From a virus, in IMG/VR virus record IMGVR_UViG_3300007511_000150, positions 1 to 24,178 of that record: 24,178 nucleotides of DNA; one strand, given 5' to 3'. Position 1 is the first letter of the stretch. The number at the start of each line of letters is the position of its first letter. Below are positions 4,401 through 19,120 of the stretch, in pieces. The notes below the pieces were generated by a model. The model was not told the DNA's origin. It saw nothing but the letters and a program-made list of their open reading frames with translations, and searched no databases. The translations under genes and the position numbers were made by a program.

Positions 4401-7400
4401 AAGAAAATTTACAATATTAAATGGATTAATTGCAGTACTAGAACTTCTAAAAGGTTGTTCGATAAAATTTACATCAGTATATGGAAGAGTAACTAGATCT
4501 CCCGTTTTTGTAACATTATTACTATATGTTGAATTATATGTAAATCTATGATTATCATAACGGAATCCAGGCCTCATTTCTTTTGTTGCATATTCAACTG
4601 AAATATTATAATCATCATTCATAACATCACCAACTGAATGACCCGCAAAAGAATCAATTAACATTCCATTCTTAAACGCCGCACCTCTTGGATTAAATAA
4701 TGAATCTTGAGCTGCACCAGAAGTAAAATCTCTTGCTGCCGTTTCTTTCTCTAATATTGTTAAAGAAGTATAATATTCTAATCTTTCAATTCTCTTTTCC
4801 AATTTACCAATATCCCTCATTGTGAAACGCTTATTATCAATATACTTTGTAGTAATATCAGAGAGATTAAATGTGTATGCAGGAATATTCAAGACATAGA
4901 GTGTCATTGAATCTTCATCATCAGAAGGTGGAACAGGATTCAGTCCTGACTCCCCTCTAAGAACTTTAAATTTTCGGTCTTTCGTAAGTGCAATCTTATC
5001 TATTCTAGACAAATAATAACTAAAATTTGCATCTAAAGATCCATCTGGATCTGGAATTGCATTTGGTTCTATTGCAGCAGTATTTGCATATAATTCATTA
5101 CTTTCATTTTCTCTTCTAGGTCTAAAATCAATACAATCTCTCAAAGAAAATGTTTCACCACTTGTTGGGCTAGTAAATTCTGGTATTTTTCCATAATCAA
5201 AAGTCAAAGTACTGGATGCATCTTTTTGATTATATGATCCAGAAGTTGGGTATGAATCTACTGAATGATAACCTACTCCACCATCCCAATTAAAATAATC
5301 AACTACAACCATAATCTTTCCGGCGGGCCCAGCATAACCAGGCTTTAATTTTATTTTTGCGTGATCATAGAAATTATCTTTTTGTCCTGTATCAAATTCG
5401 TATCTATGAGTAATATCATTAGCAGAAGCAGTCATCGCTATATTTGATACTTCAATAAATGGTTGACCAGAATCTACAACTTTTACTAAATTAAATGCAT
5501 CTGAGACAGGAATAGTATCTGTTAGATTTTGCTCTTGATTCGGTGTAGAAAAATAAAATTGTCCACTAGTCACATCAGATACAGGCGCATAAGGAGTACT
5601 AGTTCCATTAGCAGTAAAATGTGATCCATTACCACTTACCAATGTTTTAGTTCTAGGTCCTGGTTCTTTCTTTACAGACGAACTTTCTACAGTATAAATT
5701 ACATCAGCGACAAATGCAACATTAGTATTACAATTAATTTCTACTGTTCCTCTGTCATTACTAACTACTACTGGTCTAATCTTGGCTCCTGCATTGTTTA
5801 GTGCACCAAGATCTAAATAATCTCCAACTGCCATTACTCGTGCTATACTAGCAGAAGCATTTGGAAGAGTAGTACCAGAGGCTACGGCATTTACAAATGT
5901 CTGTGCGGAACTTGTATTGGTCTTAACCATTACAATGAAATTTTCTTTTGCGTTCGTTTCAGATAATGTTCCACCTCCAGGCATAAATCTATAATTCGGA
6001 TTAGAAAGAGTGAGTGATAATTTTCCAGAAGAATCAGAAGTTAATGCCTTCTCAACAAACTTCATTGAATAACTAACAGTATTTCCTGTTCCTGCAGTTT
6101 CTTTTACTGGGCTTTGAGGTAATGAATAAACCAAAGAATTTAAATCAGTACTTCTTAATTGTGTATTACCAGAAGTAGAACTATTAAATTTTCCTGAATC
6201 TGAGATATCTGCATATGAATTTATAGTAGGGGGAGCTCCCAATGCAGCAACTAACATAGTTTCTACATCTTTGATCTTAAAATCTATTTCATATGTAGTA
6301 TTTGCGATTGATGCTTGAGTCAATACAGTATTACATACAACATAGTGACCAGTTGAATTGGAATAATAATCATCAATAAGTCTTACATCACTAGTAACAT
6401 CAATACCACTTGTTGTATTGACTGTAATACTTGCACCATCATAAGCATTGTTCACATAAGATGTTGTTGCTGTTGCCAATCGAACAATTCTAGTATTTGC
6501 CATTGCTCCGCCAACAGTTCCAGTAACATTATTTGAAGTTTTAACATCCCAAAGATACATTCTATAATTTGAATGATTTGTATCTGGTGATGATGTATTT
6601 CCAGATTTCTCATCCCAATCCATACTACGAACTCTTGCTGTTCCTGCAAGAGTAGATTGATACTGTGCATTACTAGCCAAATTTACAGATGCTTTTCTAA
6701 CTGAATGTAGATCTACTATTTGATGAGATCCAATATCAAATAAACTATTAACTCCATCAACTATAACATAATTTCCAATTTCTGTACTAATACTATAATC
6801 TGTTACACTTTCGGTATCTCTTCCTTTATCCATATCAATATATTGTGTTGCGATACTTTCATACTCATAACCCTTTACATAGGCTTTACCAGGATCTAAA
6901 CCAGCAGAAATTTCTGATTCATTATAGATTTTAGCTCCTTCTATTTGAGCGGAAAGAGCAGTTTGAACAGTTAATCTTGTATTGTTTGAAATTGCTGTAA
7001 TTTGAGAAGTAGTTGTATTTGAACCAAGATAAATGTAATCTCCAACATCTAATTCTGTAATAAATAATGTATTATTTCCAAATACAGAAGTTCCGGCAGC
7101 TCCTGCATTTGCAGTAGTACCCGATATTCCTCTATGTGCTTTTAAATCTAGATTAAATGGTGTTATTGTATAATCACCAGATTCATCATACGTTCTTCTT
7201 GCTAAAGTTTTTCCAAGTTCACCATAAGTAGGGTATTTAATTTCTTGTTGTTTTACACCATCTTGAACTTTCAACAATTGAATAAAATTTTCATCTGCTA
7301 ATTGTTCTACTGGATCAGTAGCAGTTATTTCTTTTGTTGATAATGCAAGTTCAACTTTATATCTTGTTCCCCCCGGAGCAGCATAGTTATATGAACCTGA

Positions 7401-8109: not shown

Positions 8110-9762
8110 TTAGAATTCAATTATTAACTTAACATCTTCTATTTGATCATCGGCTCTTGTTACAGGTGAACGGTTTTCCACATATAACACATCCCCAGAA
8201 AATTTTTCCATATCTCCACCAGCAACGGCGCTAGTATTAGCAGAACCAGAACTAGTTCCACCAGTAATAGTTTCATTTGCTTGGAAAGATCCAGCAATAC
8301 CATCAAAACCGGCGGTTGTATTACTACCAGTAGTAACATCAACCAATCTAAGAGTTGTATTACTCTTAAAGTCAACTACTTTACCAGTTGCACCAGATAG
8401 TGCACCCGTTATAACTTCATCTTCAGAAAATGCTGTACTATTCCAAGACTGAATTGTAGCAGTTACACATTGATCAAGTGTAGATGAAGTGGCCACATCA
8501 CCATTAGCAAATAATGGTTGAGCCAAAAGACCGATCTTACGGAAATCGTTGTTTGTAGTAAAGTTACCAGATTCCCCGTATTCCAATCGACTGTTGACCA
8601 TTACAAAGAAACCTCCAAGTTCTTCAACTGCATCATCACCATGACCACCTCTTGGTCCAATGATAGGTGAAATTGCACCAGAACTTCCAGAGTTTGTGGA
8701 AATGGTTGCCACGGCATTACCATAATTATTTCCACCAGAAATAACTACAATATCTCCAATAACACCAGATGCGGTATTTGTGGCACGTACATTAGCACCT
8801 TGTCCATCACCAGTAATTGCAACTTTAGGGGCGATAGAGTATCCATCACCGTCTGCAGGAACATTTGAACTTGCAAGTGCAGGAGTCCAAGTTACAACCT
8901 GAGTACTAGATTGGTAATCTGTAATTGTTCCACCTTTACCAGTAACACCACTACCAGAATCAGAAGTAAAATAAATGTCACAATCAACAATATCATCTGT
9001 AGAAAGTCCAGATCCAGTAATCTTACAAGTAGTTGTAGTTTCTGTATATCCAGATTGAACAGTTCCAGATTCAAATTTGTATGCACTACCTCCATTAGTT
9101 ACATGAGCTACATCAATAGCGCCATTTCCAGAAGTATTTGCTGCAATTTCAACATCAAACTGGAAAGACGAATCGGTTGTATTTGCGATTGCGTTATTGG
9201 CCTTACGTACTCTTTGTGCGGGCATATAACTAGGAGTTACAAATTTAAGAGCTCTCGCTGCAGAAATCTGATACATGAATTTCCATTTATAACTGTCACC
9301 AGTTTCTACAATGGATGTTCCTGTTCCTGAGGGTTTTGTGGTTGATGTTCCACCAGAGTTATTGTTGGCGAGACATTTATATACATTATAGTCATCAGTC
9401 ATTACATAGAATTGTTGATCCCATAATGAATTGTTTGCATGAGTATATGCAAAATAATTTGATCCGGTTGTCCAATCATACCTTGGTACAACATGACTTA
9501 CTTCCGTTGATCCAATTTTCTTGGCTGCAATCATGTCTCTCCAATGATTATATACCGTATTGGAAACAGAATCAGTAGGCGTTGGTGGAGCTGTATCATC
9601 TGTCCACGGGGTTACTTTACCTATAAAAAGGTACATATTTGTAGTAAGTGCCCCACTCGCATCTGTAACGGCATCCCCCGAAGTAGCCGTGACTTCATCA
9701 AACGCTTCCACAAATTGTTTAGCGTTGTGAATTCTAAATTTATTGGTTACTATAGCAGGCAT
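8110..9762 (-). CDS. 8: Baseplate wedge protein gp8-like, with internal insertions (550 aa)
   Basis: gp8 is a baseplate wedge subunit that binds gp7 and gp10 at the periphery in T4. This protein matches T4 gp8 in order: IVTNKFRIHNAKQF near the N-terminus (T4 IVTSKFRTEKMLNF), PTDSV then VVPRYDW at ~60-95 (T4 PTDSV, VIPRRDW), YKWKFMYQI near 160, DFRKIGLLAQPL at ~410 (T4 GFRQISIITNPL), and SGDVLYVENRSPVTRADDQIE at the end (T4 SGEMIYMENRPPIIMAMDQTE). T4 gp8 is 334 residues; the extra ~215 lie in two inserts at ~195-385 and ~425-520, made of Gly-Tyr and GETITG-type beta modules. GGAGGA at 9771-9776, 8 bases before the ATG, fixes the start, and a late promoter precedes it. Identification is confident. 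Confidence 0.93.
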   Translation of the reverse strand: MPAIVTNKFRIHNAKQFVEAFDEVTATSGDAVTDASGALTTNMYLFIGKVTPWTDDTAPPTPTDSVSNTVYNHWRDMIAAKKIGSTEVSHVVPRYDWTTGSNYFAYTHANNSLWDQQFYVMTDDYNVYKCLANNNSGGTSTTKPSGTGTSIVETGDSYKWKFMYQISAARALKFVTPSYMPAQRVRKANNAIANTTDSSFQFDVEIAANTSGNGAIDVAHVTNGGSAYKFESGTVQSGYTETTTTCKITGSGLSTDDIVDCDIYFTSDSGSGVTGKGGTITDYQSSTQVVTWTPALASSNVPADGDGYSIAPKVAITGDGQGANVRATNTASGVIGDIVVISGGNNYGNAVATISTNSGSSGAISPIIGPRGGHGDDAVEELGGFFVMVNSRLEYGESGNFTTNNDFRKIGLLAQPLFANGDVATSSTLDQCVTATIQSWNSTAFSEDEVITGALSGATGKVVDFKSNTTLRLVDVTTGSNTTAGFDGIAGSFQANETITGGTSSGSANTSAVAGGDMEKFSGDVLYVENRSPVTRADDQIEDVKLIIEF

Positions 9763-9835: not shown

Positions 9836-12800
9836 TTATGTATAACGTACTGCTGAAGTGATAGATGTTTCTTCTTCTGTAAGTGGAACACCTGATCCTG
9901 ATTCAAAAACCATAAGATCATCATTCTCCATTAAGAAGTTCCATGTTGTTTGTTTCCAAAATGGAACAGCATCAGTACCACCCCAATGTTTTCTGGTTAC
10001 AACTAAAGTATCATCATCTGTAATAGATGAAATCTTAAATTCTCCAGGTTCTGTAAATAGTATCTTTGTTCCATCCTCTAGTAATAAATCATCAGACAAG
10101 GCATCAGAAGTTTCCATAATAAGTTGTCCTGAATCATCTTCAAGATACATAATATCTCCTGCCTGAGAATCTTCACCTAAAAGATAAAAACTTTCATCAG
10201 TAGTATTTAGGTCATATCCACCTTGGATACCGTCTTGCATTCCTCCTTGATCAGTAAAATCTCCAATAAATTTAAATGTAGCAAAACCCGCGAGATTAGA
10301 ATCCTCTGAACTAATAAACCACCTGAAATCTCTTATTTGTACACCTCTCACATATTCCATTACATCATCTTCTACGTGCATTACTCTCATTGTTTCGTGT
10401 TCTAATCTTTCATCTGTTTCTAGTAAGATTTCAACATCAAAATCTGTATCTTCTAGAAGAATATTTTCATCTCCTGTATGAAATACATCACCGACACGGA
10501 GTTCTTCTGTAAATACTGTATTTGTTCCAGTTACAGTTGTGCCATTATGAGGAATGGAAATCCGACCTGACATTTGTTCAGGTTCTTTTCTTTCTGTTTT
10601 GGATGTTCGTATAGCAGCAAAATTATGAGAAAGAGTATAAGGAGTAATTAATCCTTGACCCTCTACTCCTGCCGGGTTGTCAAATCCAGCCATCCATTTA
10701 TGTAAATCTGAACCAGCTGTTCCTGCACAATAATAATAAAGATTTCCAGATTCAGGCATCTTCATTAAAATATACGCACCAGGTTGTCCCGCAATTCCTA
10801 CACGGGTAACATCAGTAGTATATTCTGATCCACTATTATGATGACCATTTAAAGTAGTAGAAAATGCCATTAAGTGTTCTTCTCCTGAATCATTATCAAA
10901 ATTAGAAGAATCACTCACATCCCATTTATAATATACTCCAGGTTCAAATACAATATTTGGATGTTGTACTCCATCTAAAAAGAACCTATGTTTAGATTGA
11001 CCCATAGCAGTTGTCATTACAATTGTTCTTACGGGTTTAGTATAATCAGAAACTCCGCCGGTTCTACCAGGAATAAGTTCAACTTCACCATTTAAAGTTT
11101 TTACATGGCCCTCTTCAGTACTTATTCTAATATTATTATTCTCAAGAATCATATGAGAACCATCCTCCATGAATAAATTATATCCACTATTCTCATATAA
11201 ATTTAAATTAAATTCAGGAGCAGTTCCGTCTCTAACTCCACCCATTTCATCTTCTAATTGAGTTCTTATATCATCTTCTGCACAAAAAATCTGACTAGAA
11301 TCTTCAGTAAGTAAATGTCCCAAAAATGTCCAGGGTAATTTATTAGCTGGTGTTATTTCAATAGTTGAAGTTTTATTAGGATTTTCTTCTGTAATTGCTC
11401 TGGATCTGTCTTCATGAATGAGATGATCATCATTTTCCATTAAAATATGCCAACCCATTTGATCTACTAAATCGGCTTGAACTTCTACATCTAACAGTAA
11501 ACTGCATTCCAAAGATTCTTGTAGATTAAATTGTACATGATTTTCTATTGATGTGCCGATACTAACAATTTGAGTATTTGCTAATATCACCGGCCGATAG
11601 TAAGGTGCAGCTATAAATTGTACTTGTACATTACTTAAAGCTGGAGTAATTTCAACTTCACCAAACCATCTCAAAATACGATCATGTCCTATAATAAATC
11701 TAGCCAATCGTGTAGATTCATCACCCTCTTCTATGAAATGTCCTCCATCTTCTAACATTAGATGGAATTCTAAAGATTCTTGTAGATTAAATTGCACTTG
11801 ATTTACATTGTTCTTATCAATTCCATAATCCTTTTTCTCAAGATAGAAATAACTTGCATTAATTGCATCATCTTCATTCTCTATCAAACTACCATCTTCC
11901 ATTGAAAGCCTACCCAATGAAGTAAGTTTATCAACGTATTGATACAATGGTGCAACTTGTTTAATTGTCCAAGATTGTCTTTCCAACATCATATGATCTT
12001 CTGGTTGGCTTCCACCGAACCAGAAAGTTCGTTCTTCATAAATTAAATTGCTACCATCTTCACCAATTATATTTCCAGCTCCATCTGTCCACTCTTCAAC
12101 AGCTATTAAGTAAACATAAGAAGTGTCCTCATATGTGATTTTACTTCCATCCTCCATAAGTAAATCATAACCCAAACCTTTAAAAAGATTTAAATTAACA
12201 TGAGTACGTAATTGTGGAATACTTGAATACTGACCATCTACACTATCTGTATCCTCTTCAAGTGAAATAAATCTAACAGGACCTTGACCAGCAGTTCCAG
12301 AAGTTTCATCTAAAAGATATGCGGGACCATCTTCCGTTAAATCTTCTAAAAGAATATCACTATTGAAACTCATATCAATGGTTGTTGCACCAGATTCAGG
12401 AGTTGGAAAACTTAATTTCGGATAAAGAAATGTTCCTCCATGTTCAAGTAAAAATTTTTCATTATCTAATTCATCCGATAATGCATCATTGAATGGCGCT
12501 TCCCAATTTGAAGTATTTGCTCTCCAACCATTTGCAAATGCTAAAGTTTCTACTTTAATTGTCCCACCACCTGTAGCAGTCTGTGCGGTGGCAGCCGCTC
12601 CGGCTCCAGGATCGCCTCTGTATAATACTACAGTATAAGAATTTGAATTTGGAACAGTAGAAACTTCATATCTTCCATTCCAAAAATCTTGTGTTGCTTT
12701 AGTAATTTGAATTTCATCGCCGACTTCTAAATTATGTAATGTTTCTGTAATAGTAGCATATATAATAGAACCTTCTGCGTGGGTTCTTTGCATTGTAACA

Positions 12801-15800
12801 TTTCTGAAATCCTCTATTAAAAGATTTTCGTCATTTCTTACATCAATCTTTCCATCCATTGCTTGCCAAGGATGTTTCATGGTCTGTAATTCTATTATTC
12901 CACCACTTGGATCTAGATAAGATTGATATCCACCACCCGCTACTGTAGAAGTTGGTTTATGTTGAACATTTGCAAAAGAATTAATTGTAGGAATAGTTAC
13001 ACGATATCTTGGTGAATATCCTCCCGCAGTACGTGCAGTATTAGAGTCTGTAGAATTTATATCACCAGATCTACCAGCATCAAACATTGCTGCAGATTCT
13101 TTATTACGAAATGCCACCTCTCCAAACATTAACATTCCAGACGGGTGAACTAATCGTTTTACACTATCACGATAATCAGTAACATCAAAATCTGTTTTCA
13201 ATACATAAGAAAAGTCTTGATAATACCTGTTATCTTGTAACTTTGGTGTTCCACTTAATAATCCTTTACCCCCTGTATAATATCCAGCATATTCAGCAAA
13301 AGCACCTAATGTAGCAGTAAGAACAGCATTTCTATTTCCTGTAGTTGTAGATAGAGTTGGAAGAGATGTATAACCTGCACCAAAATTATAAACTTCGATT
13401 GTCTTAATAGCTCCAATTGCAATAGCTGAAACTCCAACGGTTGCATTATTTCCTTTTAGTGAAGTATCTACAGTATATGTGTTATAAGAAGATAAGTATG
13501 CAGACACCACACCCCTAACTCTCAATTCTCCATTAATAGTTGCTGATCCATCTTCTGGTAAAGTAAATGAATAAGTATTCGTAGTTAGAACAGTAATTTC
13601 TCTAGTACCATTGATAGTTGTAGTTAATGCTCCTGTAAATTTAATTTTATCGCCGGTTCGTAAATTATGTCCTGTATCTGTTACTGTAACAGTTCTATTT
13701 CCAGATCCACTTCCTACCGCAGTAACTGTTCTTTGTTCACCCCATGTTACTACGCCATTATAATTAAGAACATATGTTTGCCCACTCCCTATTGCCTTAG
13801 AAGTTTCAACTTCAATGGTTGTTGAATTAGAAAATCCTGTTACAGTTGTAGTTGATGAATCTGCATAAACTAAAGTGCCTCTGACAACATCATTTGGAAA
13901 ACTTGCAGACGCGATAGTTACTACAACATCATGATCAGTTATAAATTTATCATTACCATTTTCATGAATAAATCCAGATGAATCGGAAACACCTTCTTGT
14001 TGTAAATAAAATCCCTTTTGTGTAATTGTCCCTGAACTAACAGTTGAAATTGTATTAGTATAAGAAGTAAGTCTTTCTGATGTAGGTCCTGTTTCAGTAA
14101 ATACTCTTGAACTACCTTGAAATAATCCATCTGCCGGATCATCTTCATATGCAATAATATCTTCATTTTCCATCAACAAATATTCTGTTGTAGATGAAAA
14201 CGTATTAACAGTTGTCATTTGGAAACGGAGAGTTGTATTACCATCCGCAATATAAGGTCTTACTGGCTTAGGCTTATCAATAAAATCAAGAACCTTTGCT
14301 CTAGCAGAAAAATCATCATTATATACATAACTGTTTTTTACAAAATTATTGGCAATTGCCATATAAGTTAATTTATATGTTTGTGCAGCATCATTTATTC
14401 CAAAATTCTTTTCGGTTTCTACTTTAACAGAAGAAGTATTTGTAACAGAAGTAATAAAATCAGTATTACCATTTGCATATTCAATTTTTAATAAACCAGA
14501 ATTAGCATCAGGAAAAGTGCCACCAGATAATGTAACAACATTTCCAGTTTGAGTAATTGTACCAGTAGTATAAGTGTGAAGATTTAAATTAACCAAAGAA
14601 TTATTTGCGCCAGTAATATCTAATGCATTTCCAAGAGTAGACATATAGCCATTTGTTACTGTAACGACAGGAGAAGCTTCATATTTTTCACCACCCGCTG
14701 TTATTTGACAAGCAGAAATTGCACCAGTATTTTTTGTACTCGTAGTAAAAGCACCTTGAGTTAAATGTGCTACAGTATCTCCTGATTGACCAAAGGCATC
14801 AGTAATCGTAACATTTGAACTACTATTGACTGATTGGACTGCAGGAGTATTACTTAATTCAAATGTAATACCCGTGTGAGTAAGTGCACTATCATGTGAA
14901 TTTGCGGATTTAGTAGCATATGCTTTTGTTCTTGCTGGATCATATACCATAACGGTATCACCATTAATAAAATTATTAACAGATGTGATATCTGGTAATA
15001 CGGGATCAACATATATTGAACCTACAGTATATAATATTTGAGTACTATTTGCTCCTATAATAGTACCCCAAACAGTATTTGATCCATAATCAATATCGTA
15101 TATTTGACTAGATGAAATCGAATGGCTATCTTTAACTGATATTACTGTGGTATTTGTATATCCAGTAATAATAGTTGTATTACCATTTGCATAGGTAAGT
15201 TTACCACCTACAATATCTCGTCTTTCTGCTTCAGAAAGGGGAGTATCTAATGTTATAGTAGTTCCTGTTTGTAATAATCCAATATTATCACCAAGCTCAC
15301 TTCCAATTCTTACTTTTTTATGTAATAGTTGGCCAGCTTTTAAAAACTGAGTATTCATAAATGGCGACGCTGAATCAAAATATTTTCCATTTGTTATTGT
15401 TGCTCGAAATACTACTGAACTATTCGCCCACAAATGAGTATTTGCATTATGACCCTTCAGCGTTGCATCATAATCAGCTGCATTTATTAAAGTATCTCTA
15501 AATGTTGCAACTTGATCTGAATTTATAACTGTTTGGTGGGTTGTAATAATTTCTGAAACTCTTGCGGCTGCTCCTGAACCACCTGTGCCCTCATCAATAA
15601 ATTTAAGAACATCACCTACAGAATAACCATCTCCTGAGTCGAGAATATCTATGCCCTCAACAACAGCATCTGCAATAGTTGCAACCCTTGCCTTTGCATC
15701 TTGTCCACCTCCACCACTAATAGAAATTTCATCGCCAATTGTATATTCTGTCCCTCCAACATCTACAGAAATTCCCTTTACAAGACCAGAAGTAAAGGCA

Positions 15801-16846
15801 GTAGCAGACTTTCCATCTATATCTACTTCAGAATCAATTCTTTCATCAACTTTAAAAAATCCTAATACACCATCATCATCTAATCCAGCAACAACTTCAG
15901 ATAGATAAAGCTCTGTAACTAATAATGCTCCGACAGCAGAAGTTATAGCACGTTCTACTATAGCAGTGCATTTAGAAGATGCCCCTGTAATTTTTCTTCC
16001 TGTAAATAATTCTAGATTAGTTGCCGATGAAGATATAATTTTAATAGTCTTATCAAGAGTCCATCTACCATCACATAATTTTATAAGATCATTTTTTGGA
16101 TAATAAAATTCTACATCTTCTTTTGCAAATAAAGTTCTGAATAACCAAGTAAAAGATTCTTCATTCCCTTTCGACCTATAGACCCGTTTCATTCTCTTTA
16201 AAAGTTGTCTACGATCCGTTTTTGTTGTTCTTGGAATATTTGTATAAAATTCTTTCTTCCAGGCATCATCAATTAATCCCTCATTTGTAGTATCAATATC
16301 CTGCATTTCGGGAAGTTCCCTAATAGCAGCGACGGGATTTCTTGTTCTAAATGATTCTATTGATGCTTCGGGAAGTGTTCCAGAAAGAACACCATTAGCT
16401 AATGTGGAATATGCACGGGATGATGAACCTGTAATCTGTTCACCATATTGAAAAACAGTATTATTTGTGGGTTTTATAAATGCTACAGTATTTCCTTTTG
16501 TTCCTGTAATAACTGCTGTTGCACCTGAGTTATTACCTGTAATAGTTTCACCTATTAGAAAAGAAAGATTTGCATTTAATGCAGTATCACGCTCGGATTC
16601 TAATTGTAATCTATCACCATCTTCATATGAAAGAAATTCTACTCCCTCTGCAATAGCAATAGAATCTTCTGGTAAAAGTTTGTATTCGTTAAAAGTAATA
16701 GAATCAAAAACAATTTGATGTGATTCTAAAAACTGATAATATTTCTCTACAAATGTTTTAAATTTAGGATGTTCATATGAAACAAATTCAGGTAACTGAC
16801 TCTCAACTAATACTGATATATCTTTTTTATCTTTTACTTCAGACAT
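9836..16846 (-). CDS. Giant baseplate wedge protein in gp7 position (2336 aa)
   Basis: Located between gp6 and gp8, where T4 has gene 7, but 2336 residues against about 1032 in T4. The N-terminus (LPEFVSYEHPKFKTFVEKYYQFLE-type segment at ~18-40) and residues ~195-265 (RRQLLKRMKRVYRSKGNEES, then LFRTLFAKEDVEFYYPKNDL, then DGRWTLDK) are patterns I know from gp7-position proteins of marine T4-like phages. A second conserved block at ~1175-1250 contains GLLSGTPKLQDNRYYQDFSY and VHPSGMLMFGEV. Residues ~525-1040 carry three copies of a beta module. From ~885, and densely from ~1490, come acidic LMEDGS motifs. Residues ~1940-2054 resemble a cupredoxin fold. AGGAT 7 bases upstream sets the start; it follows gp6 after 2 bases. 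In T4, gp7 spans from the wedge core to the periphery. Calling this gp7 rests on position plus conserved segments, not on direct alignment to T4 gp7. Confidence 0.8.
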   Translation of the reverse strand: MSEVKDKKDISVLVESQLPEFVSYEHPKFKTFVEKYYQFLESHQIVFDSITFNEYKLLPEDSIAIAEGVEFLSYEDGDRLQLESERDTALNANLSFLIGETITGNNSGATAVITGTKGNTVAFIKPTNNTVFQYGEQITGSSSRAYSTLANGVLSGTLPEASIESFRTRNPVAAIRELPEMQDIDTTNEGLIDDAWKKEFYTNIPRTTKTDRRQLLKRMKRVYRSKGNEESFTWLFRTLFAKEDVEFYYPKNDLIKLCDGRWTLDKTIKIISSSATNLELFTGRKITGASSKCTAIVERAITSAVGALLVTELYLSEVVAGLDDDGVLGFFKVDERIDSEVDIDGKSATAFTSGLVKGISVDVGGTEYTIGDEISISGGGGQDAKARVATIADAVVEGIDILDSGDGYSVGDVLKFIDEGTGGSGAAARVSEIITTHQTVINSDQVATFRDTLINAADYDATLKGHNANTHLWANSSVVFRATITNGKYFDSASPFMNTQFLKAGQLLHKKVRIGSELGDNIGLLQTGTTITLDTPLSEAERRDIVGGKLTYANGNTTIITGYTNTTVISVKDSHSISSSQIYDIDYGSNTVWGTIIGANSTQILYTVGSIYVDPVLPDITSVNNFINGDTVMVYDPARTKAYATKSANSHDSALTHTGITFELSNTPAVQSVNSSSNVTITDAFGQSGDTVAHLTQGAFTTSTKNTGAISACQITAGGEKYEASPVVTVTNGYMSTLGNALDITGANNSLVNLNLHTYTTGTITQTGNVVTLSGGTFPDANSGLLKIEYANGNTDFITSVTNTSSVKVETEKNFGINDAAQTYKLTYMAIANNFVKNSYVYNDDFSARAKVLDFIDKPKPVRPYIADGNTTLRFQMTTVNTFSSTTEYLLMENEDIIAYEDDPADGLFQGSSRVFTETGPTSERLTSYTNTISTVSSGTITQKGFYLQQEGVSDSSGFIHENGNDKFITDHDVVVTIASASFPNDVVRGTLVYADSSTTTVTGFSNSTTIEVETSKAIGSGQTYVLNYNGVVTWGEQRTVTAVGSGSGNRTVTVTDTGHNLRTGDKIKFTGALTTTINGTREITVLTTNTYSFTLPEDGSATINGELRVRGVVSAYLSSYNTYTVDTSLKGNNATVGVSAIAIGAIKTIEVYNFGAGYTSLPTLSTTTGNRNAVLTATLGAFAEYAGYYTGGKGLLSGTPKLQDNRYYQDFSYVLKTDFDVTDYRDSVKRLVHPSGMLMFGEVAFRNKESAAMFDAGRSGDINSTDSNTARTAGGYSPRYRVTIPTINSFANVQHKPTSTVAGGGYQSYLDPSGGIIELQTMKHPWQAMDGKIDVRNDENLLIEDFRNVTMQRTHAEGSIIYATITETLHNLEVGDEIQITKATQDFWNGRYEVSTVPNSNSYTVVLYRGDPGAGAAATAQTATGGGTIKVETLAFANGWRANTSNWEAPFNDALSDELDNEKFLLEHGGTFLYPKLSFPTPESGATTIDMSFNSDILLEDLTEDGPAYLLDETSGTAGQGPVRFISLEEDTDSVDGQYSSIPQLRTHVNLNLFKGLGYDLLMEDGSKITYEDTSYVYLIAVEEWTDGAGNIIGEDGSNLIYEERTFWFGGSQPEDHMMLERQSWTIKQVAPLYQYVDKLTSLGRLSMEDGSLIENEDDAINASYFYLEKKDYGIDKNNVNQVQFNLQESLEFHLMLEDGGHFIEEGDESTRLARFIIGHDRILRWFGEVEITPALSNVQVQFIAAPYYRPVILANTQIVSIGTSIENHVQFNLQESLECSLLLDVEVQADLVDQMGWHILMENDDHLIHEDRSRAITEENPNKTSTIEITPANKLPWTFLGHLLTEDSSQIFCAEDDIRTQLEDEMGGVRDGTAPEFNLNLYENSGYNLFMEDGSHMILENNNIRISTEEGHVKTLNGEVELIPGRTGGVSDYTKPVRTIVMTTAMGQSKHRFFLDGVQHPNIVFEPGVYYKWDVSDSSNFDNDSGEEHLMAFSTTLNGHHNSGSEYTTDVTRVGIAGQPGAYILMKMPESGNLYYYCAGTAGSDLHKWMAGFDNPAGVEGQGLITPYTLSHNFAAIRTSKTERKEPEQMSGRISIPHNGTTVTGTNTVFTEELRVGDVFHTGDENILLEDTDFDVEILLETDERLEHETMRVMHVEDDVMEYVRGVQIRDFRWFISSEDSNLAGFATFKFIGDFTDQGGMQDGIQGGYDLNTTDESFYLLGEDSQAGDIMYLEDDSGQLIMETSDALSDDLLLEDGTKILFTEPGEFKISSITDDDTLVVTRKHWGGTDAVPFWKQTTWNFLMENDDLMVFESGSGVPLTEEETSITSAVRYT
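9890..12465 (-). repeat. Acidic 'LMEDGS' motif array in the gp7-position protein
   Basis: From residue ~1460 to the C-terminus the protein repeats a short acidic motif, roughly aromatic-x-L-[ML]-E-[DN]-[GD]-[SD]-x-h-I-x-E-D. Examples are LLMEDGSKITYEDTS (~1559), IIGEDGSNLIYEE (~1590), LSMEDGSLIENEDD (~1646), LMLEDGGHFIEEGDES (~1693), ILMENDDHLIHEDRS (~1798), LLTEDSSQIFCAEDD (~1840), LFMEDGSHMILENN (~1886), LLEDGTKILFTE (~2260) and FLMENDDLMVFESGSG (~2302). One outlier copy, LLMENEDIIAYEDD, is at ~889. Four copies sit in a longer unit starting [NQ][LF]NL. At DNA level one 23-base stretch is identical at 11511-11533 and 11772-11794. Function is unknown. Confidence 0.75.
10685..11030 (-). other. 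Cupredoxin-like segment within the gp7-position protein
   Basis: Residues ~1940-2054 run: a strand into HRFFLDGVQHPNIVFEPGVY, then YKWDVSDSSNFDNDSG, then EEHLMAFSTTLNGHH, then EYTTDVTRVGIAGQPGAY, then LYYYC and HKWMAG. This is the layout of a plastocyanin-like domain: Gly-Val-Tyr-Tyr strand, an 'HxxxFS' His, then a Tyr-rich strand ending in Cys with His and Met after it. The candidate ligands are His1991, Cys2040, His2049 and Met2052 (C-x8-H-x2-M). I recall related segments ending YYYC..H..M in other marine phage virion proteins. Copper binding is inference; a structural role without metal is equally possible. Confidence 0.5.
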
Positions 16847-16848
16847 TT

Positions 16849-18726
16849 TTAATATCCTGTTGAGATAGTTTGACCATCAACTGTTCCAATTGAACCAGTT
16901 GTATATGTTCCTGTTCCAGAATCGTCTAATATAGTTACATCAATATCTCCACTTTGAATCAATATAATTTGTTCACGTAAAGGTAAAATATCATTTGATG
17001 CGGGAGTTACAAAAATTTCCATTCCTGTAGTATTACCAGTAGAAGCAGATCCTATAGCCTGTGGGGCAAAACTAAGAAGAGATATTTTACCTGTTCCATA
17101 TGTAACAGATCCTATATTATTATCAACTAAAATTCTATTTTGTCCAGAAGTTCTATATACCTGAATAACACCATTGGAATCTTGTAATTTACATCCTGTC
17201 CAAGTGGTATTAGCAGAATCAGTATATGAAAAATCTGTACTTGTTATTGATCCCCAAAAAGTATTTGAAGGATGGTAAATTTCATTTGAAAAATTTAAAT
17301 CATAGGCAGAACTAGATCCTAATAATGGGTATAAATATCGTTTTACTTGAATTGAGGTTTGATTACTTTTAATTGAAACTTCTGACTCATCAATTTTTTT
17401 AACTAAATTAGAATATCTAAATGATTTATCAAAATCTTTTAATGATGTATCTCCATATCCTGTTATTGAATTCGTAACTGTAGCTTTGAGAGAAGAAGAA
17501 CTATTTGTTGTTAATGTTGCATCATATTTTACTGTGGCATTAACTTTTAAATACAAATAATCTGGATCTTTAATTTCAGGAGTAACACCAACAACATTTC
17601 TTTTAGAAAGTATAGTATTAGTAATCCAAGCTTTTGTTGATCCTGAAAGCACTGTTCCAGTAGTAGGCTTGACAGCAACAAAAACCTTTCCATAAACTGG
17701 TGGATCATTATCTTCTCCACCCCAAGCAACAACAGATTGGGCCCCACTATAATCTCTTTTGACTAAACTTACATAATCATAAATGGTCACGGCTCTATTT
17801 TGAGCATCATAACTTTTTGGTGCATTAAATTTAATACCTTCAATATCTTCTGGTATTTGACCACCACCTGCAGTTGATGTAGTTACAATTTTTACATTAG
17901 AATATCCACCAACATCAGAAATAACAGAGAAAGATTTACATCCATTTGTTAAATTTGCGTCACATATTAAACTTGAAAGAATTATAATATTTCCATTTGA
18001 AATTGGTCTGCCTAAGACTCCATCACCAAATTCAACTTCATATTTTCCATCTGCAGCTTCGGTTAAAAAATATACATTCGATGTAGCATTTACCGTGGTA
18101 ATATCATTTGCCATTGAATATACAGCAGAAGTAGTATCAGTTGAAGATGTTTGAATAGTTACAGATAATGTGTCTGTATCTACATTTGCATTGGGAAGAA
18201 TAAATTTTTGATCTTTATCTCCTGTATTTGCGGTATAACGATGTGTTACAGGAACCCCCTGAGTTAATTCTACAGCCGAAACAGTATAAACACCATTGGC
18301 ATTAAGGTTTACTGAATGAGAATTTGAAGTACACCACACATAAGATACCCCATCTACATCACCAGAAAATTGTGTATTTTTTGCTACACTAATCACGGCA
18401 GGAGTACCAGCAGGAGTAATTTGCATATTAATTATTGCCTTTGAACCTTTTGCAGAACGAGGATTATATCCTAAATGTTTGGCTCTCGCCACAACTGAAT
18501 TTCTAAGAGTTGCAGAATCCAAAAACATTTCGTTTGCAATCATGTTTGCATAGTATGCATTATAATGTGTATTATATGCTAATATGTCCATAAGAACATC
18601 AAAAGATGATCCTTTAAAATTATAACCAACGAATTCATCCTGATTGGACATAAATCCCACTAGATTGTCTTTGATCTTTTGAAAATCTAATTCAGATACA
18701 TTTAGTTTTCCTTCTGCACTTGCCAT
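16849..18726 (-). CDS. 6: Baseplate wedge protein gp6-like (Baseplate_J family)
   Basis: The protein is 625 residues; T4 gp6 is 660. gp6 forms the dimeric backbone ring of the baseplate and belongs to the J-like/Baseplate_J family. The N-terminus is the diagnostic part: LDFQKIKDNLVGFMSNQDEF, then FDVLMDILAYNTHYNAYYAN, then EMFLDSATLRNSVVARAKHLGYNPRS at residues ~40-95. This signature is shared by T4-like gp6 proteins of marine phages. A further segment, YDAQNRAVTIYDYVSLVKRDYSGAQSVVAWGGEDNDPP split across ~305-340, is typical of Baseplate_J proteins. A strong GGAGAG at 18735-18740 with an 8-base spacer fixes the start. The gene lies between gp25 (1-base gap) and the gp7-position gene (2-base gap), so gp25, gp6 and gp7 form one translation block. 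Confidence is high. Confidence 0.93.
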   Translation of the reverse strand: MASAEGKLNVSELDFQKIKDNLVGFMSNQDEFVGYNFKGSSFDVLMDILAYNTHYNAYYANMIANEMFLDSATLRNSVVARAKHLGYNPRSAKGSKAIINMQITPAGTPAVISVAKNTQFSGDVDGVSYVWCTSNSHSVNLNANGVYTVSAVELTQGVPVTHRYTANTGDKDQKFILPNANVDTDTLSVTIQTSSTDTTSAVYSMANDITTVNATSNVYFLTEAADGKYEVEFGDGVLGRPISNGNIIILSSLICDANLTNGCKSFSVISDVGGYSNVKIVTTSTAGGGQIPEDIEGIKFNAPKSYDAQNRAVTIYDYVSLVKRDYSGAQSVVAWGGEDNDPPVYGKVFVAVKPTTGTVLSGSTKAWITNTILSKRNVVGVTPEIKDPDYLYLKVNATVKYDATLTTNSSSSLKATVTNSITGYGDTSLKDFDKSFRYSNLVKKIDESEVSIKSNQTSIQVKRYLYPLLGSSSAYDLNFSNEIYHPSNTFWGSITSTDFSYTDSANTTWTGCKLQDSNGVIQVYRTSGQNRILVDNNIGSVTYGTGKISLLSFAPQAIGSASTGNTTGMEIFVTPASNDILPLREQIILIQSGDIDVTILDDSGTGTYTTGSIGTVDGQTISTGY

Positions 18727-18727
18727 G

Positions 18728-19120
18728 TTAAGTTCTCTCCAAATAAACTTCTAAGGTTGTTTCTTTAATATCATTATCTGGTATATACTCAATCTTTATA
18801 AAATATGAATTATCACGTTCTCTTGCTTCAACAGTAACTTGTTTCACATTAGCCCTACTTTCATATCTTGTTATTGCATCTTCAATGGCCGATTCAATTC
18901 TAGTTTCAGTTAATCTCCCAAAAGGTTCAAATAGAAGTGCATTAAGTCCACCTGAAACTTCTGGTTGAAATAATCTTTCCCCCGCTTGAGCTCTAATTAT
19001 ATTGTTTATAGAACGATTAATTGCTTTAGTTTTTTTAACTGTTAATAGATCTCCATGAGCAGGATGTTTTCCAAAACTCATATCAAAATCTTTATATTCT
19101 TTTCCGTATGTTGTTGGCAT
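18728..19120 (-). CDS. 25: Baseplate wedge protein gp25-like (GPW/gp25 family)
   Basis: This is a 130-residue member of the gp25/gpW/TssE family; T4 gp25 is 132 residues. In T4-like phages gp25 joins two gp6 copies to form the core of each baseplate wedge, beside the tail sheath start. Supporting segments are IKxSINNI-like NRSINNIIRAQAGERLFQPE, then GLNALLFEP, then ETRIESAIEDAITRYESR, then a beta C-terminus ending TTLEVYLERT. These follow the T4 order (NSLLGII..RPFDPE..LFE..ESAVRNYEPR). The family EPR motif reads ESR here, a Pro to Ser change. The ribosome site is weak (AAGAG). The gene is one base from the gp6 start, so the two core wedge subunits are made together. Identification is confident. 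Confidence 0.93.
   Translation of the reverse strand: MPTTYGKEYKDFDMSFGKHPAHGDLLTVKKTKAINRSINNIIRAQAGERLFQPEVSGGLNALLFEPFGRLTETRIESAIEDAITRYESRANVKQVTVEARERDNSYFIKIEYIPDNDIKETTLEVYLERT

Follow-up and report, generated by a model that had tools for sequence, protein, structure and literature searches.

A copper-type ligand set in a baseplate wedge protein

Why would a viral baseplate protein carry the residues of a blue copper site? The question arises from the window, the whole 24,178-base IMG/VR virus fragment analysed here, whose minus strand encodes a run of T4-like baseplate proteins: gp25, gp6, a wedge protein of 2336 amino acids, gp8 and a DUF4815 protein. The large protein had been assigned to the gp7 position of the wedge, an assignment that holds: it scores 38.4 bits against PF23786 (Baseplate_wedge; gathering cutoff, 27), and its gene is flanked by those for gp6 and gp8. 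The genes that define this context are:

8110..9762, minus strand: gp8-like baseplate wedge protein (context; PF09215, phrog_438)
9836..16846, minus strand: baseplate wedge protein, 2336 aa, gp7 position (PF23786 and phrog_17744, baseplate wedge subunit)
16849..18726, minus strand: gp6-like baseplate wedge protein (context; PF21379, PF21871, phrog_219)
18728..19120, minus strand: gp25-like baseplate wedge protein (context; PF04965)

The C-terminal part of the wedge protein (9836-11800, minus strand) contains many short repeats of the LLxEDGxxIxxE type, for example LFMEDGSHMILE and LLLEDGTKILFTE, and the segment under study is surrounded by them. Its features are:

10676..11044, minus strand: cupredoxin-like domain, wedge protein residues 1935-2057 (profile E 1.2e-22; AlphaFold2 model and fold searches)
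10874..10876, minus strand: codon for H1991, which corresponds to the first His of the copper set (HP[FMLI] motif; residue position, family alignment)
10727..10729, minus strand: codon for C2040, in YYYC (residue position, family alignment)
10703..10726, minus strand: AGTAGSDL, the eight-residue spacer between Cys and His; all other copies seen have a spacer six residues shorter (alignment, loop count)
10700..10702, minus strand: codon for H2049 (residue position, family alignment)
10691..10693, minus strand: codon for M2052, at the axial ligand position (residue position, family alignment)

The residues named in the original prediction lie exactly where it placed them: EEHLMAFS begins at 1989 (H1991), LYYYC at 2036 (C2040) and HKWM at 2049 (H2049 and M2052). 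The entire protein has only six cysteines. All four residues align with the ligand positions of a family of related phage domains, in the His ... Cys-His-Met order of type 1 sites. A profile of this family, built mainly on copies from other phages, recognizes the window domain with an E value of 1.2e-22, a match far beyond chance. Profiles of the two domain halves give 1.4e-16 for the N-terminal half and 2.9e-6 for the C-terminal half, which contains the Cys. Searches with the window domain alone were uninformative: Pfam returned no family match, the gathering thresholds of PF00127 and PF25489 both remaining out of reach; a sequence search of the PDB found no copper protein and nothing useful; and a scan of viral contigs produced no close relative, leaving the window copy as the one known example of the long loop.

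The segment is predicted to adopt a cupredoxin fold

AlphaFold2 was run on wedge residues 1930-2068 with 70 aligned sequences. The model has seven strands, a mean pLDDT of 76.6 and a pTM of 0.71, with block means of 71-95 over model residues 11-110 and values below 50 at residues 117-121 (amino acids 2046-2050, including H2049). The metal site of the window copy is thus a putative one, the loop that carries H2049 being modelled at low confidence. In Foldseek searches of the PDB, the best 15 matches are all cupredoxins (best E 2.9e-3), some antibodies appearing lower down. In VIA-align the best 50 rows consist of cupredoxins only, with Z scores of 7.1 to 5.8; a Z below 8 could, taken alone, reflect nothing more than a widespread arrangement, although the entries here are uniform throughout.

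A homologue with a normal-length loop (L020, 45% identical), modelled on much the same alignment, gives a pLDDT of 91.0 and a pTM of 0.86 and is confident across its ligand loop. Its best 50 VIA rows are again all cupredoxins, with Z up to 9.9. That top score is obtained with the nitrite reductase of Hyphomicrobium denitrificans, on its N-terminal cupredoxin domain (2dv6; 104 residues, 2.7 A; Foldseek E 8.2e-5), in an alignment that covers all four ligand positions; rusticyanin follows with a Z of 8.9. The window domain and L020 are thus both predicted to be Greek-key beta sandwiches of the cupredoxin type, and the check on which the proposed fold had been made to depend, structure prediction, came out in its favor. 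An immunoglobulin V domain was also considered, a 70-sequence profile having given only weak antibody V-domain matches (YYC motif). This candidate was rejected for want of a second Cys and on the preference of the fold searches for cupredoxins.

The classic type 1 copper set consists of two His, one Cys and an axial Met (or Gln). The phage domain resembles amicyanin, rusticyanin and the nitrite reductase N-domain in predicted fold and in ligand order, with at most about 20% identity in structural alignments. It differs from them in being lodged inside tail and baseplate proteins with no known redox partner. Amicyanin has the C-x2-H-x2-M spacing typical of the phage family, whereas the window loop reads C-x8-H-x2-M. 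A resemblance to the type 1 site of copper nitrite reductases, suggested originally, is correct for the eight-residue Cys-His spacing and does not extend further: the NirK loop is C-x8-H-x4-M, with four residues between His and Met instead of two, and the window protein is without a type 2 copper domain.

The domain recurs in tail proteins of marine phages

Among annotated phages, the closest tblastn matches are virion structural proteins of the cyanophage S-TIM5 group (36-40% identical). Looser ones include pelagiphage tail fibres and a Kyanoviridae protein, T4-GC399, encoded between gp9 and gp8. Profile searches add the C-terminus of gp9, the connector between wedge and tail fibre; cyanomyovirus gp9 genes ending in the domain are found, for example, at L010:7465-7776 and L177:3001-3312. 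Four alignment-based scans of viral contigs yielded 655 copies in 335 sources. Similar segments in marine phage virion proteins had been suggested originally, and the fold is indeed not unique to this phage. Phage isolates contributed 347 records with a normal-loop copy as query and 327 with a gp9 copy; judged by organism name, nearly all are marine or aquatic, with cyanophages in the majority. The hosts are unrelated (cyanobacteria, Pelagibacter, Methylophilales).

A plasmid scan for the domain found none, and a scan of genome contigs gave 26 loci. The Pelagibacteraceae loci that were inspected lie in genes of tail-fibre size that follow a large ORF of virion size, and are probably phage or prophage. 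An ORF of 382 amino acids in a Cellvibrionales MAG (UBA1963; L434), of either host or viral origin, has three tandem copies with intact ligands. Predicted viral structures matching the domain belong to S-TIM5, to tail fibre-like proteins of P-SSM2 and to gp9 proteins; among the matches listed, no name says cupredoxin.

Existing Pfam models capture the family sporadically. The copy in L336, a close relative of the window phage, passes the gathering cutoff of PF25489 (At5g54830-like; 30.9 versus 27), a family in which the window domain scores nothing, and falls just below that of PF00127 (Copper-bind; 19.3 versus 21.2). PF00127 is matched by 3 of 70 family members, at best with 1.3e-4; gp9 of cyanophage S-SM1 reaches 22.4 bits against PF25489, and other copies weakly match Cu-oxidase_3.

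Ligands are kept or lost as a set

The ligand loop is recognizable in 537 copies. It reads C-x2-H-x2-M, the amicyanin loop, in 529 of them, as originally suggested for marine phage virion proteins; seven have C-x2-H-x2-Q and the window copy alone has C-x8-H-x2-M. Replacement of the axial Met by Gln, a change known from stellacyanin, is seen in L012 (cyanophage P-RSM6, 4992-5414) and in the inner copies of L195 and L196. The ligand set is intact in all 199 gp9-type C-terminal copies. In a set of 178 representatives, the four ligands are all present in 130 and all absent from 39, with few mixed cases. The ligand-free copies, chiefly the second copy of GC399 and the GC345 tail fibre, lack both His and the Met along with the Cys, yet they keep scaffold glycines and tyrosines (for example alignment positions G138, Y142 and Y197). 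To judge from the alignment, they look like instances of metal-site loss on a retained fold. In a FastTree tree this co-loss corresponds to two independent events on supported branches and three in all, and because the events are so few the pattern is statistically not strong. Alignment of homologues had been proposed as a means of telling whether the ligands are freely lost; they are lost as whole sets in particular copies, not freely.

Copies inserted within copies

Profiles of the two domain halves (N and C) revealed nested copies, which occur in several metagenomes and in two protein families. The halves follow the order N-N-C-C in L360 and in GC399 proteins from six contigs; L344 and L346 show N-N-N-C-C-C:

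L344 ORF, aa 1419-1732; L346; L360, aa 1084-1295: nested copies (half-domain profiles)
L193, L195, L196, L197, L202 and L203, aa about 378-605: nested copies in GC399 proteins (half-domain profiles)

The arrangement suggests that a whole cupredoxin has been inserted into a loop of another, after an EYTTG stretch, up to three deep. In L195 the insert separates STGSS from AADYEN; un-nested relatives, L010 for one, have the two almost side by side. The outer copy of L195 keeps both H400 and C594-x2-H-x2-M, 194 residues apart. All three nested ligand sets of L344 are complete, including the outermost (H1437 and C1721), whose members lie 284 residues from each other. Survival of the split outer sets lends independent support to the notion that the four residues work together. 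Nested copies also amount to a clean natural experiment on the tolerance of the domain to being split. L360 has in addition a C-terminal extension (aa about 1560-1955) that is absent from the window protein and by eye resembles a sugar-dehydrogenase-type propeller (DGYLYIATGDGG, YAYGFRNPWR, EEINQV).

An optional module

Thirty-one close relatives of the window phage were compared (gp8 at least 80% identical, enough upstream sequence available). Their wedge proteins carry one to four cupredoxin copies in 11 cases, and none, in the part seen, in the other 20. In some of the relatives the alignment to the window protein restarts just past the domain, from window residue 2066 in L384 and from 2070 in L352, and no aligned stretch in relatives of this type covers the domain itself. 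Together, the 20 wedge proteins lacking the domain and the alignments that resume beyond it indicate that the cupredoxin is an optional, shuffled module. These properties speak for a role at the surface and against one on which tail assembly depends.

The extended loop of the window copy

The six extra residues between Cys and His raise the possibility that the window domain is simply an Ig-like sandwich serving in adhesion or spacing, in which the insertion has split the Cys from the His, metal binding has been lost and the remaining residues are relics. The solitary long loop among the 537 is what one would expect of such a decayed site, as is the low pLDDT around H2049. It is also true that the fold survives total loss of the ligands in the GC399 second copy and the GC345 tail fibre, and that many close relatives do without the domain. 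However, degenerate copies mostly drop Cys, His and Met together, and the window copy has not: it retains H1991 and the Cys as well as the H-x2-M pair. Moreover, the window sequence H-K-W-M-A-G-F parallels H-R-Y-M-S-G-Y of intact GC399 first copies (consensus H-[KR]-[WY]-M-[AS]-G-[FY]), a likeness that backs H2049 and M2052 as the ligands even with the insertion in place. Finally, PDB 2vmj is the solved structure of a nitrite reductase in which the C-x8-H-x4-M loop has been swapped for C-x2-H-x2-M; one scaffold can therefore accommodate type 1 loops of either length. On balance, we regard loss of the site in the window copy as unlikely, if the most serious of the alternatives. Loops in this lineage are being remodelled, since the inner copy of L360, whose wedge protein is 45% identical to that of the window, has lost its Met.

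Discussion

Taken together, the data favor a genuine cupredoxin that forms a shuffled accessory module on the phage surface, with a type-1-like copper site and a structural or contact role; we put the probability of this reading, which draws on sequence and model evidence, at roughly 0.6. The strength of its parts differs. Homology, predicted fold, ligand conservation and genomic context are what the analysis shows; metal binding, which metal it is and what the module does are inferred. Copper binding by the family is probable; for the window copy the odds appear about even. A structural or adhesive role is more likely than a catalytic one.

The module would be displayed on the baseplate wedge, where the mid-domain His and the Cys-His-Met loop near the end of the domain would converge on a single copper ion. 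Most family members would form such a type-1-like site and the window copy, an extended-loop variant (C-x8-H-x2-M), probably would too. Copper is available outside the host cytoplasm and would be acquired there; once bound, it could tie the loops of the domain together. The domain would then act as a structural or contact module, much as iron does at the tip of the T4 gp37 fibre, rather than as an electron carrier. Iron sites have been described in the T4 long tail fibre protein gp37 (HxH) and predicted in Alteromonas phage R22Y (PMC11705849). The precedent lies in the presence of metal ligands in phage tail fibres; the site itself differs, gp37 having an HxH octahedral iron in a trimeric fibre and the phage domain a His-Cys-His-Met set in a single beta sandwich.

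A different occupant, such as Zn or another soft metal, or Cu(I) only, with a purely fold-stabilizing function, seems rather improbable. Recombinant type 1 sites can take other metals and the cytoplasm, where phage proteins fold, is poor in free copper; against this, two His, a Cys and a conserved axial Met or Gln make up the signature of type 1 copper.

Tail-fibre iron in marine phages has been discussed both as structural and as bait for a receptor, the Ferrojan Horse idea (PMC11705849). By analogy, copper might be put to use at host contact, either to carry electrons or to bait a copper-uptake receptor, and the redox-competent ligand set kept in every gp9-type copy, gp9 being the tail-fibre connector, would fit. 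We consider this quite unlikely: neither a gene for a redox partner nor a link to a receptor is known, among close relatives the module is optional, and it occurs in phages whose hosts are unrelated. Nearly as doubtful is a broader scenario in which the particles of marine phages, those of most cyanomyoviruses among them, contain many copper ions in blue-copper domains at the joints of baseplate and fibres. The metal would work at the moment of contact with the host, through redox chemistry or as receptor bait, and the domains would have spread by mutual insertion.

The cupredoxins known so far are electron carriers, soluble or attached to membranes, and domains of oxidases. A literature search, outside of which lay subscription journals and preprints, found among the titles listed no report of a cupredoxin as part of a virion. 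A large set of such modules on marine phage tails has thus apparently gone undescribed, although some of the proteins could already be labelled by automatic domain annotation (e.g., InterPro). Virus particles with these baseplate cupredoxins may carry copper. Should the site prove genuine, then among the most abundant marine viruses some would bear a soft-metal centre where baseplate and fibres meet, and phage particles would be linked to marine copper chemistry, as has already been proposed for iron.
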